Origin: Candidatus Neomarinimicrobiota bacterium
GTDB lineage: Bacteria > Fidelibacterota > SORT01
NCBI GenBank assembly: GCA_022573815.1
Contig: JACZTG010000005.1
Location: 1 to 64,000, forward strand
DNA length: 64,000 nt
Reading direction: 5' to 3'
Position 1 is the first letter of the stretch. Each line of letters begins with the position of its first letter. Position numbers and translations under genes: made by a program. The notes beneath the pieces were generated by a model, which worked only from the letters and a program-made list of their open reading frames with translations, did no database searches and was not told where the DNA came from. This document shows positions 12,631 to 22,876 of the stretch, one piece after another.

Positions 12631-14037
12631 TTATTCAAATAATTTCCAATACGTTGCCGATATCAATACCAACATTGCTAACGATGAAAGGCTTAATTTC
12701 CATCCAGCCCGGAAGAAATCATGTGGTCTTATAAAATTACTGCTGAAAACTATTGTATTTGCGGGCGAGCCTATGATTGTCATAAAAGTAAATGACGACG
12801 CCATAGCAACTACAAACCCTACTGCGATTAAGCTTGTGTCCGTTATTACCGCCAACTCAAGAAAGATAGGACCGAGAACAGCGACCGCAGGCCCATGGCT
12901 CATTACATTTGCGACTATCATAGTTATAACTGCTACAACTATAATGAGAGCAATTCCTCCTCCAATGTGAATTGCTTCCATTCCGCCAAGGAGAGCGTTA
13001 GCCATCCAGGATGCCGCTCCTGTTTTCTGCATAGCAACTCCAAGAGAGATGGCTGAACCGTAAAGCAGAACCACACCCCAGTTCACTCCCGAGTTGATAT
13101 TGTCCCAATTTACAAGTCCTGTAATTAAGTATAATGAAACCCCTATGAATGCGGGTATTCCAAGACCAAGACGATCGCTTGAACTCACCCACAATATAAG
13201 AGTAAATAAAAAGATGAAGATGGTCAACCATTCGGCTTTTCCTAAACTTCCCTCATTTTCCACACTCTTTTTCAATCTGATAATTGCCTGACTAATATCC
13301 CTGTTTTCAGGCTTGAAAGTAATATTTATGAAGAACGCAACAACGGGAATCTGAATTAAGACCATTGGATAGGCGTATTTTATCCATTCGGTATAAGTTA
13401 TATTTATATCGTATAGGCGACTCCAGTAATCCAACATTACGGCATTCCTTGCTCCACCTGACGGGGTACCGACAGAGGCAGCTGCGCAGCCGTATGCAAT
13501 GGAAAACATCAGTATGAGCGAAATATTACGAATCTTTTTGCTATCGGCATCAATATTATTTACGATGGTGATTGCCACCGGAAGCATAATCGCCGCCACA
13601 GTATGCGCTCCTATAAATGAAGCCATAATGGCGCAGACGAGTATGAAACCAAACGATAATCGTGTTACACTGCCCTTTGTAAACCGTAAGATAAAATATG
13701 CAATTCTTCTGTCGAGTTTTTGATGCACAATAGCAACCGCAAGCATAAGCGAACCCATTATAAAGAAAACCGAATCGCTCATAAACGATTGAGAAATCGC
13801 CTTTGGAGTATCCACACCAAATAAGACCTGAAACACTGCTATAAGCAGTGGGACTGTCGGAAGCGGAACTTCAGCGGTTATCAGAATTATAGTCGACATT
13901 ACAAGGATGGCGATTACATCCATTCCATTTTCGGACAGACCTTCTGGCGGCGTCAGATTCGCAATGGTAACACAGGCAAAAATAGCGGTTATAAACCACC
14001 TGTGGGTATCTATCCAATATAAGACTATCCGAATCAT
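12631..14037 (-). CDS. SLC13/DASS family anion transporter
   Basis: This is a 468-aa polytopic membrane protein of the divalent anion:sodium symporter superfamily. It shows the two hairpin regions typical of the family, with small-residue motifs near GCAAASVGTPSGGARNAV and TFMTIIGSPANTIVFSSN. It probably imports a di- or tricarboxylate, sulfate or similar anion with sodium. The exact substrate is not readable. It starts eight bases after the end of the larger homologue at 14045-15817, and the pair plus the Usp protein probably form one operon. Confidence 0.85.
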   Translation of the reverse strand: MIRIVLYWIDTHRWFITAIFACVTIANLTPPEGLSENGMDVIAILVMSTIILITAEVPLPTVPLLIAVFQVLFGVDTPKAISQSFMSDSVFFIMGSLMLAVAIVHQKLDRRIAYFILRFTKGSVTRLSFGFILVCAIMASFIGAHTVAAIMLPVAITIVNNIDADSKKIRNISLILMFSIAYGCAAASVGTPSGGARNAVMLDYWSRLYDINITYTEWIKYAYPMVLIQIPVVAFFINITFKPENRDISQAIIRLKKSVENEGSLGKAEWLTIFIFLFTLILWVSSSDRLGLGIPAFIGVSLYLITGLVNWDNINSGVNWGVVLLYGSAISLGVAMQKTGAASWMANALLGGMEAIHIGGGIALIIVVAVITMIVANVMSHGPAVAVLGPIFLELAVITDTSLIAVGFVVAMASSFTFMTIIGSPANTIVFSSNFIRPHDFFRAGWKLSLSSLAMLVLISATYWKLFE

Positions 14038-14044
14038 CTGTTAC

Positions 14045-15817
14045 TTAAAAGGGCCAAAAAACCGGTATTAATAGAGTAACTAACAGCCACGCTATAAGGT
14101 TCAAGGGTAATCCTACTTTGACATAATCAAAAAATTTATACTTTCCGGGTCCATAAACTAACGTATTTGTTTGATAACCTATAGGCGTAATAAGGCTCGT
14201 GGATGCGCCGAACATAGTTGCCATCAGAAACGGTTTCGGATTAACGCCCAATGTGATAGCCATAGAGATTCCGATAGGAGCAATCACGATTGCCGTTGCG
14301 GTATTCGACAGAACAGATGTCAATAGGACTGTTCCGATATAAATCCCCGAAAGAATAAAGGTAGGAGATAGATCCCCGAAAATATTCAAAATACCTTCCG
14401 CAGCGTTTATTGCAAGTCCGGATTTTTCTATTGCTATCCCAATCGGAATCATTCCCGCTATAAGGAAAATGACCATCCAATCTATATTGGCGTATGCTTC
14501 TTTGATGTTTATGCATCCGGTTGTGACCATAGCGATAGCCCCGAAAATGGCAGCCACCATTATCGGAAAAACTTCAAACGCTGATAAAATTACTACCGAA
14601 AAGATTATTCCTATTGCGATAATCGCTCTATTGGTTCTGAAATTATCTAATTTCACCTCTTCTGTCATAAGAAAATCTTGATTGCCGCGTAGATCTTGAA
14701 GCGCATCGGCGCTCCCCTGAAGCAGCAACGAATCACCGAAATTAAGGGAAATTTGTCCAATTTTACTTCTCAGTGTTCTGCCGTGAGTCTGGATAGCCAA
14801 CACAAACGCTCCGTATCGTCGTCTGAAATTTATCGTCTTGACTGTAAAACCTATCAGCTTTGAATTGGGAGCGATAACTGCTTCCGCAAGGATAACATCT
14901 TCCGCTTGCAGGTCTCTGTCGCCAAGATCAACATCGCTTAAACTCAATAATTTCTCAGATTTCGTAAAATTGAGAATATCTTGCACGCTTCCCCTGACCA
15001 ATAGAATATCCTGATCCTCAATCAAAGTTGATCTAAGTTTCTGCCAGTATTTTTTTTCGCCTCGAATAATCTCCAATATGTTTACATCATAGGTTTCCGC
15101 AATTTTTCTGTCTGTAAGCGATTTGCCTATCATCGGAGAATCACCTGTCACGGTAACCTCTGTGAGGTATCTGCGCATACGATAATTCTTTGTCAAATCT
15201 CCTGTACTGGCTCTGTTCGGCAGCAATTTATAGGAAAAGAGCAATAGATAAACTCCGCCGACTGCGAATAAGATTATTCCCATCTTCGAAAATTCAAATA
15301 TCTTAAACTCCTCATATCCGTAGCTTTTCGAGATAGAACTTATAAGGATGTTTGTTGAAGAGCCTAAAAGCGTCATACTCCCGCCGAGAATAGCCGCAAA
15401 CGAAAGCGGAATCAGGAATTTAGAAGGGCTTATTCCTCTCTCCCGTGAAATTTTAATTATTACCGGAAGGAACACAGCAACAACAGCCGTGTTGTTTACA
15501 AATGCCGACGCACCTCCGGCGACGACGATTATGAACAGCATCAGTCCGATATTGGCATTCTTGATTTTTTTATCTGCTATGAATGCGAGATAGTCCACAA
15601 CCCCGGTGTGAATTAAACCTGCGCTTAAAATGAACATTGCTCCGATAGTTATGGTGGCGCTGTTGGAAAATCCTGATACTGCTTCTGCGGGTGTAACTAA
15701 TTTAAATAGAAGTAAAACCGCCAACATAAACATCGCAACCAGATCCGCTGATAATTTGTCCGAGATAAACAATATCAGCGCTCCGATTAATACCGCTATT
15801 AGTATAATAGAATCCAT
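14045..15817 (-). CDS. SLC13 family transporter with two TrkA-C (RCK_C) domains
   Basis: This is a 590-aa membrane protein. The N-terminal transport half has the GGASAFVNNTAVVAVFLP and GSMTLLGSSTNILIS hairpins, and the C-terminal half has VLLTSVLSNTATAIVIAP and GASTSLITPIGYQTNTLVYGP. Between them, at about residues 210-375, lie two soluble RCK_C domains (TGDSPMIGKSL.. and APNSKLIGFTV..), as in the YfbS/SdcS-like and citrate-transporter-like branch. These domains usually bind a regulatory ligand. The substrate may be sulfate, a dicarboxylate or another anion. It heads the transporter-transporter-Usp run. Confidence 0.88.
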   Translation of the reverse strand: MDSIILIAVLIGALILFISDKLSADLVAMFMLAVLLLFKLVTPAEAVSGFSNSATITIGAMFILSAGLIHTGVVDYLAFIADKKIKNANIGLMLFIIVVAGGASAFVNNTAVVAVFLPVIIKISRERGISPSKFLIPLSFAAILGGSMTLLGSSTNILISSISKSYGYEEFKIFEFSKMGIILFAVGGVYLLLFSYKLLPNRASTGDLTKNYRMRRYLTEVTVTGDSPMIGKSLTDRKIAETYDVNILEIIRGEKKYWQKLRSTLIEDQDILLVRGSVQDILNFTKSEKLLSLSDVDLGDRDLQAEDVILAEAVIAPNSKLIGFTVKTINFRRRYGAFVLAIQTHGRTLRSKIGQISLNFGDSLLLQGSADALQDLRGNQDFLMTEEVKLDNFRTNRAIIAIGIIFSVVILSAFEVFPIMVAAIFGAIAMVTTGCINIKEAYANIDWMVIFLIAGMIPIGIAIEKSGLAINAAEGILNIFGDLSPTFILSGIYIGTVLLTSVLSNTATAIVIAPIGISMAITLGVNPKPFLMATMFGASTSLITPIGYQTNTLVYGPGKYKFFDYVKVGLPLNLIAWLLVTLLIPVFWPF

Positions 15818-17948: not shown

Positions 17949-18344
17949 ATGATGCTGATTTATTTTATATTATCAATTATCCTGATGGGGATTTTTATGT
18001 ACCTGTCCCGTTGGGCGGGATGGAAGAAAGATATCGGGAAACAAATTGATAATTACAAACAGCTAAGAAGACAATTACCTGATGCCAACGAAAATAATCT
18101 CTCCAGTAGATTGCTCAGGATAAAGATAAAAAATGATTTAAACCCGTCATTGAAAAAACATTATGAAACGCTTTCGTCTCAAAGCGGCTTGACCTTAAGA
18201 AATACCCTCTTTTTTATTATTGAATACGACTATATCAGAGGCAGAGGATTAAATCCTGTCGAATCGGGTCCATTGCTCTTCCTTAATAAGGTCAAAGAAC
18301 ATATTGATGATACGGTTCGGAGGGAATTCCCAAGAGGAGCGTAA
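17949..18344 (+). CDS. Hypothetical membrane-anchored small protein
   Basis: I do not recognise this 131-aa protein. Residues 3-22 form one hydrophobic segment, followed by a basic, probably helical cytoplasmic part with no cysteines. It looks like a small single-pass membrane protein. It is transcribed away from the GAF/HD-GYP gene across a 241-base AT-rich gap and lies 76 bases ahead of the SelW-like gene in the same direction. Codon use and the lack of overlap with another gene support it as real, but no family assignment is possible. Confidence 0.6.
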   Translation: MMLIYFILSIILMGIFMYLSRWAGWKKDIGKQIDNYKQLRRQLPDANENNLSSRLLRIKIKNDLNPSLKKHYETLSSQSGLTLRNTLFFIIEYDYIRGRGLNPVESGPLLFLNKVKEHIDDTVRREFPRGA

Positions 18345-18420: not shown

Positions 18421-18648
18421 TTGAATATAAGCATCGAATACTGTGACGTCTGAGGATACTTACCACAAGCTTCCAGTTTGGCGGCAGACATAGAGAATAA
18501 TTATAGCGTAAAGAGCGAGCTTATCCCTTCGAGTCATGGGGTATTTGAGGTCGTCGTGAACGATAATTTGATTTTTTCGAAAAAAGAGATAGGCAGATTT
18601 CCGGAGCATTCGGAAATTATGGAGAGCATCAATTCGATGGATGACTGA
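18421..18648 (+). CDS. SelW/Rdx-family selenoprotein with in-frame TGA (Sec)
   Basis: Reading from TTG 18421 gives a 75-residue protein if the TGA at 18451-18453 is read as selenocysteine. The start MNISIEYCDV-U-GYLPQAS has C8-x-x-U11, exactly the redox position of SelW/Rdx proteins, whose vertebrate member reads YCGAUGYKP. The remainder keeps the family pattern: a helix with ADIENNY, then the FEVVVNDNLIFSKKEIGRFP strand pair and the C-terminal helix. The reading frame stays open for 64 codons after the TGA and ends at TGA 18646. A weak ribosome-binding site (GGA at 18412) precedes the start. Rdx proteins are thioredoxin-fold oxidoreductases. A Cys gene with a nonsense mutation is the alternative. 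Confidence 0.82.
18469..18485 (+). promoter_or_regulatory. Candidate bacterial SECIS hairpin
   Basis: This hairpin lies inside the coding sequence, 15 nt after the in-frame TGA. The stem GCTTCCA pairs with TGGCGGC, with one T-C mismatch and one T-G wobble, around the loop GTT (18476-18478). The apical loop lies 22 nt past the TGA and begins with G, in line with the general bacterial SECIS pattern recognised by SelB. Confidence 0.6.
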
Positions 18649-18691
18649 CAATTCTCCGAATTTCACAACTTCACTTTCTAACTATTCAGCA

Positions 18692-20062
18692 TTATTTTTG
18701 AGATAGACCCTCGTATAAGTATGCCATAGACTCAATTCCTTTTTGAAAATTCTCTAAGTCTATCCACTCATTCGGCGCATGAGAATGTTCATCCGGCAGA
18801 CCGAACCCTATTAACATTACCGGTACATTCAATAATTCCTCGAAATCCGTTACGATAGGAATCGATCCCCCTTCCCGCATCATAACTGTATCAGTACCGA
18901 ATGCCTTTTTTAGCGCTTCTCTCGCCGGTTCGAATATCGGAGAATTCATAGGCGAGATATATGGCATTCCGCCGTGTAGATTAAGCACTTCAACTTCCAC
19001 TGCTTTGGGAGCAATCTCCTGTATATAATCGTTGAATTGCTCTTCAATTTTATGATAATCCTGATCCGGTACCAACCTCATACTGATTTTTGCGGTGGCG
19101 ACTGCCGGGATCACGGTTTTTGCGCCCTCACCCATAAATCCCGAGTAAATTCCGTTGATGTCGAGCGTAGGTCTCGCCCATGTGCGCTCTAAAGTTGTAT
19201 AACCCTCCTCGCCAAATAATTCCGGCGCTTCAAGTTCTTTACGATATTTTTCGTCATCGTGGGGTAAACTTTTAAACATCTCCCTTTCTTCGTCCGTAAG
19301 AGCAAGAACATCATCATATATACCGGGAATCAGGATTTTGCCATTGTCGTCCTTCAGTTTAGATATTATTGTTACAAGCGCATTTGCGGGATTTATCACT
19401 GCTCCACCGAACGTTCCGGAATGGAGGTCGCTATTCGTCCCCCGAACCCGTATTTCAAAATATGCGAGTCCTCTCAAACTGTAACAAATAGACGGAATAC
19501 CTTTTGCGAACATATGCGAATCAGATATCAACACTACATCCGTCTGTAATTTATCAATGTTACTCTTGATTAAAGGAACTAAATTCGGGCTACCCACCTC
19601 CTCTTCACCTTCTATGAGAAATTTTACGTTCAGAGGCAAAGTACCTTCCGTTTTTAAATATGCCTCAACTGCCTTCATATGTAGGTATATCTGTCCCTTA
19701 TCATCCACAGTGCCCCTTCCATAAAGACCGCCGTTTCTCACTTCAGGCTCAAACGGCGGCGTATCCCATAAATTCAAAGGATCTACCGGCTGCACGTCAT
19801 AATGTCCATATATTAGAATTGTAGGCTTTCCTTCGGCTTTTTTCCACTCTCCATAAACAGAGGGATGTCCGTCAGTTGGAATTATTTCAACGCCTTCCAT
19901 TCCCATATTTTCAAGATCATCTCGAACCCAATTCGCACATTCGACCATTTCATCTGCTTTTTCAGGGTCACTGCTGATACTTTGAATTCTTACAAATTTT
20001 TTCAGCTCTTCTAAATAATTCTCTTCGTTCTTCTGAATATGTTCAATGATGTTATTGCTCAA
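18692..20062 (-). CDS. M20 family dipeptidase/peptidase
   Basis: This is a zinc metallopeptidase of the M20/ArgE/DapE/carnosinase type, acting on di- or short peptides. Metal-site motifs are in place: GHYDVQP, GRGTVDDKGQ with the bridging Asp, GEEEVGS with the catalytic Glu pair, DSHMF, and the C-terminal GLPDEHSHAPNEW His. The dimerisation domain lies at about residues 205-370. A start at TTG 20077 would place its own ribosome-binding site GGAGG inside the gene. The TTG at 20062, 8 bases after GGAGG, is the better start and gives about 456 aa. The family is usually cytoplasmic and no signal peptide is seen. Confidence 0.92.
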   Translation of the reverse strand: MSNNIIEHIQKNEENYLEELKKFVRIQSISSDPEKADEMVECANWVRDDLENMGMEGVEIIPTDGHPSVYGEWKKAEGKPTILIYGHYDVQPVDPLNLWDTPPFEPEVRNGGLYGRGTVDDKGQIYLHMKAVEAYLKTEGTLPLNVKFLIEGEEEVGSPNLVPLIKSNIDKLQTDVVLISDSHMFAKGIPSICYSLRGLAYFEIRVRGTNSDLHSGTFGGAVINPANALVTIISKLKDDNGKILIPGIYDDVLALTDEEREMFKSLPHDDEKYRKELEAPELFGEEGYTTLERTWARPTLDINGIYSGFMGEGAKTVIPAVATAKISMRLVPDQDYHKIEEQFNDYIQEIAPKAVEVEVLNLHGGMPYISPMNSPIFEPAREALKKAFGTDTVMMREGGSIPIVTDFEELLNVPVMLIGFGLPDEHSHAPNEWIDLENFQKGIESMAYLYEGLSQK

Positions 20063-20182
20063 TGAGTGTTCCTCCAAATATTAACGCTATAGTATGTTGC
20101 TGTTGATTCAGTAAGCAAATATATGTGATCATAGAGTGAGAATAAAGCTATTCCATTATAACGCCTTTTGTTCACTTTTTCC

Positions 20183-20890: not shown

Positions 20891-22876
20891 ATGGCAAAAA
20901 AAAGGGATCAAAAAAAACGTTCTGCCATTACCTCTCTGACGAACACAAGTAGCAAAAATTCTAACGACAAAAGATGGAATTCCGTCTTGAAATCAGTTAA
21001 TAAATCATTCTCTTCCGGCCTGTCTGCTGATTTTGGTTTTATTTTTTGGCGGAATCATAGTTCTTCTAAATTTAATGTTCTTTCGGTAATTGGAAATTCT
21101 AAAAGAGCTTTAAGCGGAGATCTCGACAAGAAATTAATCCCGGCAAAATGGACCAAAAAGAACGGGTATAATACACTTATATCTTCTCCCGGAAAAACTC
21201 TATCCGCCGAACCGCGTTTGATTAGGGAGCTGCGAAAGAGTGATTCTGATGCGATGTTAGTTCCCATTAGCTCAGGTAAAAAATTGAAGGGTTTTATTTT
21301 TACTCAAAATTCAGGTAACAACCGATTTGCCAAAAGTGAGGTTAAATTTGTTGAATCAATGGCATCTATTCTCGCAATTGCCGATGAGAACAGAAAGCTG
21401 AATAAAATTACACACGATCTTCAGGAGATTTCTGTTCTAAATCCAAACTTGATTATGAAATTTGATTCAAAAGGAAAACTATTATATCATAATCCGGCGG
21501 TTGAGAACTTACTGAAATCATTAAAATTAAAAACGGCTGAAGTAAGAAAAATTTTGCCATCTACTCATAATAAGCGATTTGAATTATCGTTAAAGAATGA
21601 TCAAGTGTTAACTGCGGAAGCAATAATCGGGGATAATCATTTCGAATTTCAATACACTCCTATTCCTGATGATAATATCTTAATAGTATTGGGAAAGGAT
21701 GTTACCGATCGGCAGGATGCGCTAAATAAGCTTCTTCACAGCCAATCCAGGTTAGTTGAATCCAACGAGGCTCTAAAGGAACTTTACGAGAGGGAAAAGC
21801 AGATACGCTCTCAACTTATTCATGCCGAACAGCTTGCAGCATTGGGACAAATGGGATCAAAAATTGCCCATGAGCTTAATAATCCCCTGCAGGTAATATC
21901 CGCGTGTGCGGAAGTTATTTCGGATATGGTAAACGATGATGACGTAAAAGACATAGTCAAAGATATGAACACAGAGATACAACACATCATTAGTCTCGCT
22001 TCAGGTTATATGCGACTCGGAAAGCCATCTGCTTCCAATCGGAAAAATATCAATGTAAATATTATTCTCCGTGATTTAGTTGGTACTTTAAAATCTATCG
22101 GTCATCTTAAAACTACCAATCTTAAGTTAAAACTCAGTAAAATGAGTTCTAAAGTTTATGTAGATCGAGAACGCTTGGATCAAGTATTCAGGAATTTAAT
22201 TCTAAATGCCTTGCAGGCAATGCAAGGAAGAAAGATTAAAAACCTGACCATATCCACACGGGTTGATAAAGCTGCCAAGTCAGTAGTCATAGTATTTTCA
22301 GATAGCGGAAGCGGTATTCCAAAAAAGTATCTCAACAAAATTTTTGATCCCTTTTTTACTACAAAATCCGAAGATTCGGGAACGGGAATCGGCCTTCTCA
22401 TTGTTAAGGATATTGTTGAAACAGAATATAGCGGAAAAGTTAATGTAACTTCAGTAAGTGGGAAAGGCACATCTTTTACGGTTTCGCTCCCTGTGGCGCC
22501 GGTTGACCCGTACACAGCTAAGATATTGATAGTCGATGATGAGCCGATGCTTTGTCAGAGCTATAATAGATATCTCACAAAATTAGGATACCTCGTAAAA
22601 ACTACGGGAGACGCCAAGGAAGGATTAAAAATCTTCGAGGAGTTTATTCCGGATGTAATCATTGCCGATATTCAAATGCCGGGAATGGATGGATTTCAGT
22701 TTGCTGAACGTATTTGGGAAAAAGACTCCTCACAAAAGATAATATTCTCTTCCGGATTTGCTTATGTAGAGGATATTAAAAGTAAGTTAGAAACAGATAA
22801 CCTGATATTCTTTAAGAAACCGGCACGATTAGTCGAAGACCTTTTGCACTCTGTCGAAGAGGCATTAAAGAATTAG
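20891..22876 (+). CDS. Hybrid sensor histidine kinase with C-terminal receiver
   Basis: This is a 661-aa soluble kinase without membrane segments. A weak GAF-like region spans roughly residues 30-165, and a PAS-like region covers about 175-275 (PNLIMKFDSKGKLLYHNPAVENLL). A short coiled coil leads to the HisKA box LAALGQMGSKIAHELNNPLQ (phosphorylated His near 326). A HATPase domain follows with the N, G1 and G2 boxes (FSDSGSGIP, GTGIGLLIVKDIVE). The C-terminal receiver domain (ILIVDDEPML, Asp near 592 in IIADIQMPGMDG) completes a hybrid kinase. The partner protein is not in the immediate neighbourhood. It converges on the DUF5916 gene with 18 bases between the stops. Confidence 0.93.
   Translation: MAKKRDQKKRSAITSLTNTSSKNSNDKRWNSVLKSVNKSFSSGLSADFGFIFWRNHSSSKFNVLSVIGNSKRALSGDLDKKLIPAKWTKKNGYNTLISSPGKTLSAEPRLIRELRKSDSDAMLVPISSGKKLKGFIFTQNSGNNRFAKSEVKFVESMASILAIADENRKLNKITHDLQEISVLNPNLIMKFDSKGKLLYHNPAVENLLKSLKLKTAEVRKILPSTHNKRFELSLKNDQVLTAEAIIGDNHFEFQYTPIPDDNILIVLGKDVTDRQDALNKLLHSQSRLVESNEALKELYEREKQIRSQLIHAEQLAALGQMGSKIAHELNNPLQVISACAEVISDMVNDDDVKDIVKDMNTEIQHIISLASGYMRLGKPSASNRKNINVNIILRDLVGTLKSIGHLKTTNLKLKLSKMSSKVYVDRERLDQVFRNLILNALQAMQGRKIKNLTISTRVDKAAKSVVIVFSDSGSGIPKKYLNKIFDPFFTTKSEDSGTGIGLLIVKDIVETEYSGKVNVTSVSGKGTSFTVSLPVAPVDPYTAKILIVDDEPMLCQSYNRYLTKLGYLVKTTGDAKEGLKIFEEFIPDVIIADIQMPGMDGFQFAERIWEKDSSQKIIFSSGFAYVEDIKSKLETDNLIFFKKPARLVEDLLHSVEEALKN

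Follow-up and report, generated by a model that had tools for sequence, protein, structure and literature searches.

The window, by which we mean the whole stretch of 64,000 nucleotides analysed here, contains a gene for a SelW-like selenoprotein of the Rdx family at positions 18421-18648 of the forward strand. The gene starts with TTG at 18421, contains a single selenocysteine-coding TGA (18451-18453) and ends at a second TGA (18646-18648), giving a product of 75 residues. It is almost certainly functional, with the UGA at 18451-18453 decoded as selenocysteine (Sec) by the organism's own machinery via a SECIS element. The gene, its family and predicted fold, the Sec machinery of the genome, the covariation of the SECIS and the selection on the frame are all directly visible in the computations.

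An earlier note on this DNA had claimed that gene calling leaves the stretch empty and that reading through the TGA yields 75 amino acids, and every coordinate that it gave was correct. With the standard code (table 11), 18421-18648 holds no sense-strand open reading frame, and gene finders overlook the SelW-like gene because one of its codons resembles a stop. The read-through product begins with LNISIEYCDVUGYLP (M for the TTG start). After the TGA there are 64 sense codons before the TGA stop; the note had described this part as keeping SelW/Rdx features up to a normal stop, and the frame was indeed intact, with a match to the Rdx profile. The position of the start codon is common to three relatives from the same family, ATG being used in two of them and TTG in the third. 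A scan of the unoccupied parts of the window for frames opened by read-through of a single TGA returned seven candidates, and the SelW-like frame alone resembled a real protein; the translations of the other six were judged by eye to be of low complexity or random-looking. The sole open reading frame listed at the locus under table 11 is an antisense one of 68 amino acids (18460-18666), and it might be argued that this is the real gene and that the sense match is incidental. However, each of the three closest relatives, all of the same family (L024, L025 and L026), has stops within the antisense frame, indicating that this frame is not the gene, and the family matches of the sense product reach E-values of 1e-20 to 1e-28. 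We therefore see practically no chance that the antisense reading is correct.

A search of the read-through product against the Rdx family, which the earlier note had proposed as a check, gave matches above the curated cut-offs: 73.7 bits with Pfam Rdx PF10262 (cut-off 22.6, E = 1.4e-20), 98.3 bits with the NCBIfam model NF041051, SelT/SelW/SelH family (seleno)protein (cut-off 88), and 64 bits with TIGR02174 (cut-off 34.2). With such an E-value in Pfam, the read-through frame cannot be due to chance. A sequence search of the PDB also matched the product to Rdx proteins. The TGA was said to sit at the Sec site of a CxxU motif, and it does fall on the second residue of the CxxC/U pair: the motif Cys8-Asp-Val-Sec11 (18442-18453, forward strand) has Cys8 and position 11 invariant in an alignment of 29 members. 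According to the alignment and the predicted structure, CDVU (residues 8-11) lies between a strand (residues 3-8) and a helix (residues 14-28). The AlphaFold2 model built from the 29-member alignment has a mean pLDDT of 89.4 and a predicted thioredoxin-like fold, beta-alpha-beta-beta-beta-alpha. When the model was compared to the PDB, the 22 best matches by E-value were all Rdx-family chains (bacterial SelW-related proteins, then MIEN1), followed by mouse SelW. The bacterial SelW-related crystal structures 2fa8 (Agrobacterium), 2obk and 2p0g, and likewise 3dex, are Cys-type Rdx proteins with the same fold (TM about 0.9), but they carry CxxC in place of CxxU and are only 25-32% identical to the window protein.

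Conservation was assessed in 61 genomes: the source genome, four from the same family and 56 from the same phylum. The SelW-like gene was present in 28 of them, with 30 matches in total, one of which (G001) is cut at a contig end. The codon at the Sec position was TGA in all 30 matches, and no Cys version of this codon was found among them in the 61 genomes searched. The frame after the TGA was open to a normal stop in every complete match; the comparison of relatives at this codon, which the earlier note had also suggested, thus showed the TGA kept throughout, with no frameshifts behind it. For the 63 codons after the TGA, comparison of the window with three same-family genomes gave a dN of 0.18-0.21, with dS above 1 or saturated. 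A dN so far below dS indicates that what follows the "stop" is translated and under selection, and purifying selection is thus acting on the coding region after the TGA. These data bear on the notion that the locus is a pseudogene, derived from a Cys-type Rdx gene by mutation of the Cys codon (TGT/TGC) to TGA. Such a change requires one substitution, and Cys homologues do exist in other groups, where 40 homologues have TGC or TGT at this position. The scan of contigs that returned them used a query with the Sec position back-translated as Cys, so that only Cys homologues could be returned and the numbers of Sec homologues elsewhere are not given by it. Against a pseudogene stand the TGA in 30 of 30 phylum matches with Cys in none, the lack of any frameshift or extra stop, the purifying selection 3' of the TGA, the covarying hairpin in the same region and the complete Sec machinery of the genome. 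The conservation of the TGA and of the downstream coding sequence across the phylum refutes the pseudogene reading, to which we give next to no credence.

The hairpin that we assign as the SECIS apical hairpin lies at 18469-18485 of the forward strand, with arms at 18469-18474 and 18480-18485, the loop AGUUU at 18475-18479 and a conserved G at 18476. Its arms fall 16-21 and 27-32 nt after the UGA, ungapped in all relatives. If the closing A-U pair of the consensus loop is counted, the loop begins with G 18476, and 22 nt separate the TGA from this G. The earlier note had placed a hairpin with a G-starting loop exactly here, and the covariation with its controls supports its assignment as a SECIS. 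The hairpin copy in the window contains a single U/C mismatch (18472/18482), and upon free folding of 50 nt (18451-18500) it is not the optimum (z = -0.94); Rfam searched at gathering thresholds over the whole window detected only a tRNA. The case for the SECIS is therefore based on covariation in the family, and not on the energy of a single sequence. Among 28 distinct sequences, 89.3% of the cells were standard pairs, compared to a mean of 70.3% after shuffling and at most 52% for slid helices. Compensatory changes were observed in five of the six hairpin pairs, and the covariation score was reached by none of 500 shuffles. In one pair, both partners are third codon positions (21 and 33 from the T of the TGA); it occurs as AU, CG, GC, UA, GU and UG, but is never unpaired, which cannot easily be explained by protein constraint. 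The loop reads AGUUU, GGUCU or a similar sequence, and its G is invariant. In the 40 Cys-type homologues, which come from other bacteria and from haloarchaea, only 24.2% of the cells in the same columns were paired, a control that is supportive rather than decisive because these homologues are less closely related and belong for the most part to the genus Demequina. A diverged SelW subgroup with the motif EFCxxUNYHP (L049 and L050, in G039 and G043) has the SECIS UUUGAC-CGUGU-GUCAAA, in which all six pairs are preserved and the distance from the UGA is unchanged.

The earlier note had further proposed a search of the same genome for selA, selB, selC and selD, and all four are present. In the source genome (2.39 Mb, 96% complete), contig C1 carries selA (545 bits) with selB (358.6 bits) directly behind it. 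The tRNA-Sec scored 64.5 bits, and ARAGORN reported it as tRNA-SeC with the anticodon TCA (UCA). The selD gene (358 bits; positions 1186-2109 of locus L018, contig C21) has one internal TGA that places Sec within TSGGUACK, the site occupied by Sec or Cys in SelD proteins. With this in-frame TGA, annotation probably truncates selD or misses its start. With SelW and the Sec-containing selD, the genome has no fewer than two Sec genes, and selA, selB, tRNA-Sec and selD make up the complete four-part machinery. The frame would likewise stay open, with no Sec involved, if the organism had reassigned TGA throughout to another amino acid such as Trp or Gly. Yet the SelW-like gene itself stops at TGA, as do several of its relatives, and large genes of the window, such as those at 12631-14037, 14045-15817, 18692-20077 and 20891-22876, have no in-frame TGA. 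Moreover, the codon falls on a redox position typical of Sec or Cys, a tRNA-Sec with the anticodon UCA is encoded in the genome, and the hairpin is confined to genes that carry the TGA. The TGA stops, the tRNA-Sec and the hairpin thus all contradict reassignment, which we regard as exceedingly improbable.

Decoding as Sec also agrees with the distribution of the machinery in the phylum. A selA match over the cut-off was found in 27 of the 28 SelW carriers and in 16 of the 33 non-carriers (Fisher p = 3.8e-5, a value that ignores shared ancestry). The lone carrier without a selA match (G052) is 86% complete and has a tRNA-Sec over the cut-off, while two other carriers (G015 and G039) have no tRNA-Sec over the cut-off; these absences probably reflect incomplete assemblies. 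Many members of the phylum seem to have lost the whole Sec system. One family (f5, 12 genomes) lacks SelW and shows neither selA nor a tRNA-Sec over the cut-off, and two others (f8 and f13) have selA and no SelW match. This patchy use of Sec suggests that the trait or the SelW gene has been lost repeatedly in the phylum. One genome (G051) has two diverged Sec-type SelW genes (L035 and L051), whose products share 50% and 43% identity with the window protein.

Just upstream of the SelW-like gene, on the same strand, is a gene for a 131-residue protein with no assigned function and an N-terminal hydrophobic stretch (17949-18344). On four contigs from three genomes of the same family, a homologue 53-66% identical to it adjoins the SelW gene, and these three are all the same-family genomes that carry the SelW gene. 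From this gene order, a functional link between the two proteins is possible. Downstream, the locus is bounded by a convergent gene on the reverse strand (18692-20077), a putative M20-type dipeptidase named from reading its sequence, of which a 72-74% identical homologue stands at the corresponding position in three genomes of the family.

Sec insertion, the redox chemistry and the redox partner are what we infer beyond these observations. By the established bacterial mechanism, SelB with Sec-tRNA(Sec) would bind the hairpin and deliver Sec at UGA 18451. Decoding would be directed by the SECIS just 3' of the UGA, within the coding sequence, with its conserved loop G, and the later UGA (18646-18648) would terminate translation. 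Most likely, the product is a small thiol/selenol oxidoreductase of CxxU type that belongs to the Rdx family and adopts a thioredoxin-like fold. A redox role and an interaction with glutathione have been noted for SelW (PMC1088965). The two redox residues of the CxxU motif most likely form a selenenylsulfide reversibly, and the protein most likely reduces oxidised targets, whether proteins or small molecules, in a reaction linked to glutathione or another thiol.

Eukaryotic Sec versions of such proteins use a SECIS in the 3'-UTR. The window gene differs from mammalian SelW in having the SECIS inside the coding sequence, adjoining the UGA, while the Rdx fold and the CxxU/CxxC motif are common to the window protein, mammalian SelW (2npb) and MIEN1/C17orf37 (2ljk). 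The Cys homologues from other organisms that were compared at the DNA level are without the hairpin. The SelW of Epsilonproteobacteria (PMC4607533; NF041051 SelTWH_Campy) is also a short CxxU protein of the Rdx family with a 5/6-bp apical SECIS a few nt after the TGA, in a gene that annotation often misses; it belongs to another lineage, and the window gene has a TTG start. The SelW-like selenoproteins of the marine surveys (PMC1088965, PMC2398784) share with the window gene the Rdx family, the CxxU motif and the SECIS with a loop G right after the UGA, and we found no difference of substance on a comparison made above the level of direct sequence alignment; the window copy comes from an assembled genome that also has the Sec machinery. 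The earlier note's view that bacterial SelW-like selenoproteins are scarce fits the sequenced isolates covered by early surveys, with 10 reported (PMC1794560). It does not fit marine bacteria, in which surveys found them to be the most abundant selenoprotein family, with 48 genes in the Sargasso Sea (PMC1088965) and 427 sequences in 40 samples of the Global Ocean Sampling (PMC2398784). Of two reviews, one lists SelW as a table entry only (PMC9312934), and in the other (PMC13188914) SelW was not found.

The window gene is thus a sound but ordinary addition to the known SelW-like selenoproteins, and it leaves the general picture unchanged, since the abundance of such proteins in marine bacteria is already established. 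It illustrates that reading raw sequence can recover a small selenoprotein gene left out by standard gene calling, and it adds a clean example of a SECIS covarying at third codon positions and of a family, found in the Sec form only, whose presence tracks the Sec machinery across a phylum. In this phylum the gene seems to be Sec-only. It is tempting to speculate, though we would stop a little short of calling it probable, that the SelW-like protein is kept there in no form other than that with Sec, which would suggest a function in which Cys could not take the place of Sec. If true, the gene would be lost along with the machinery, with no conversion to Cys.
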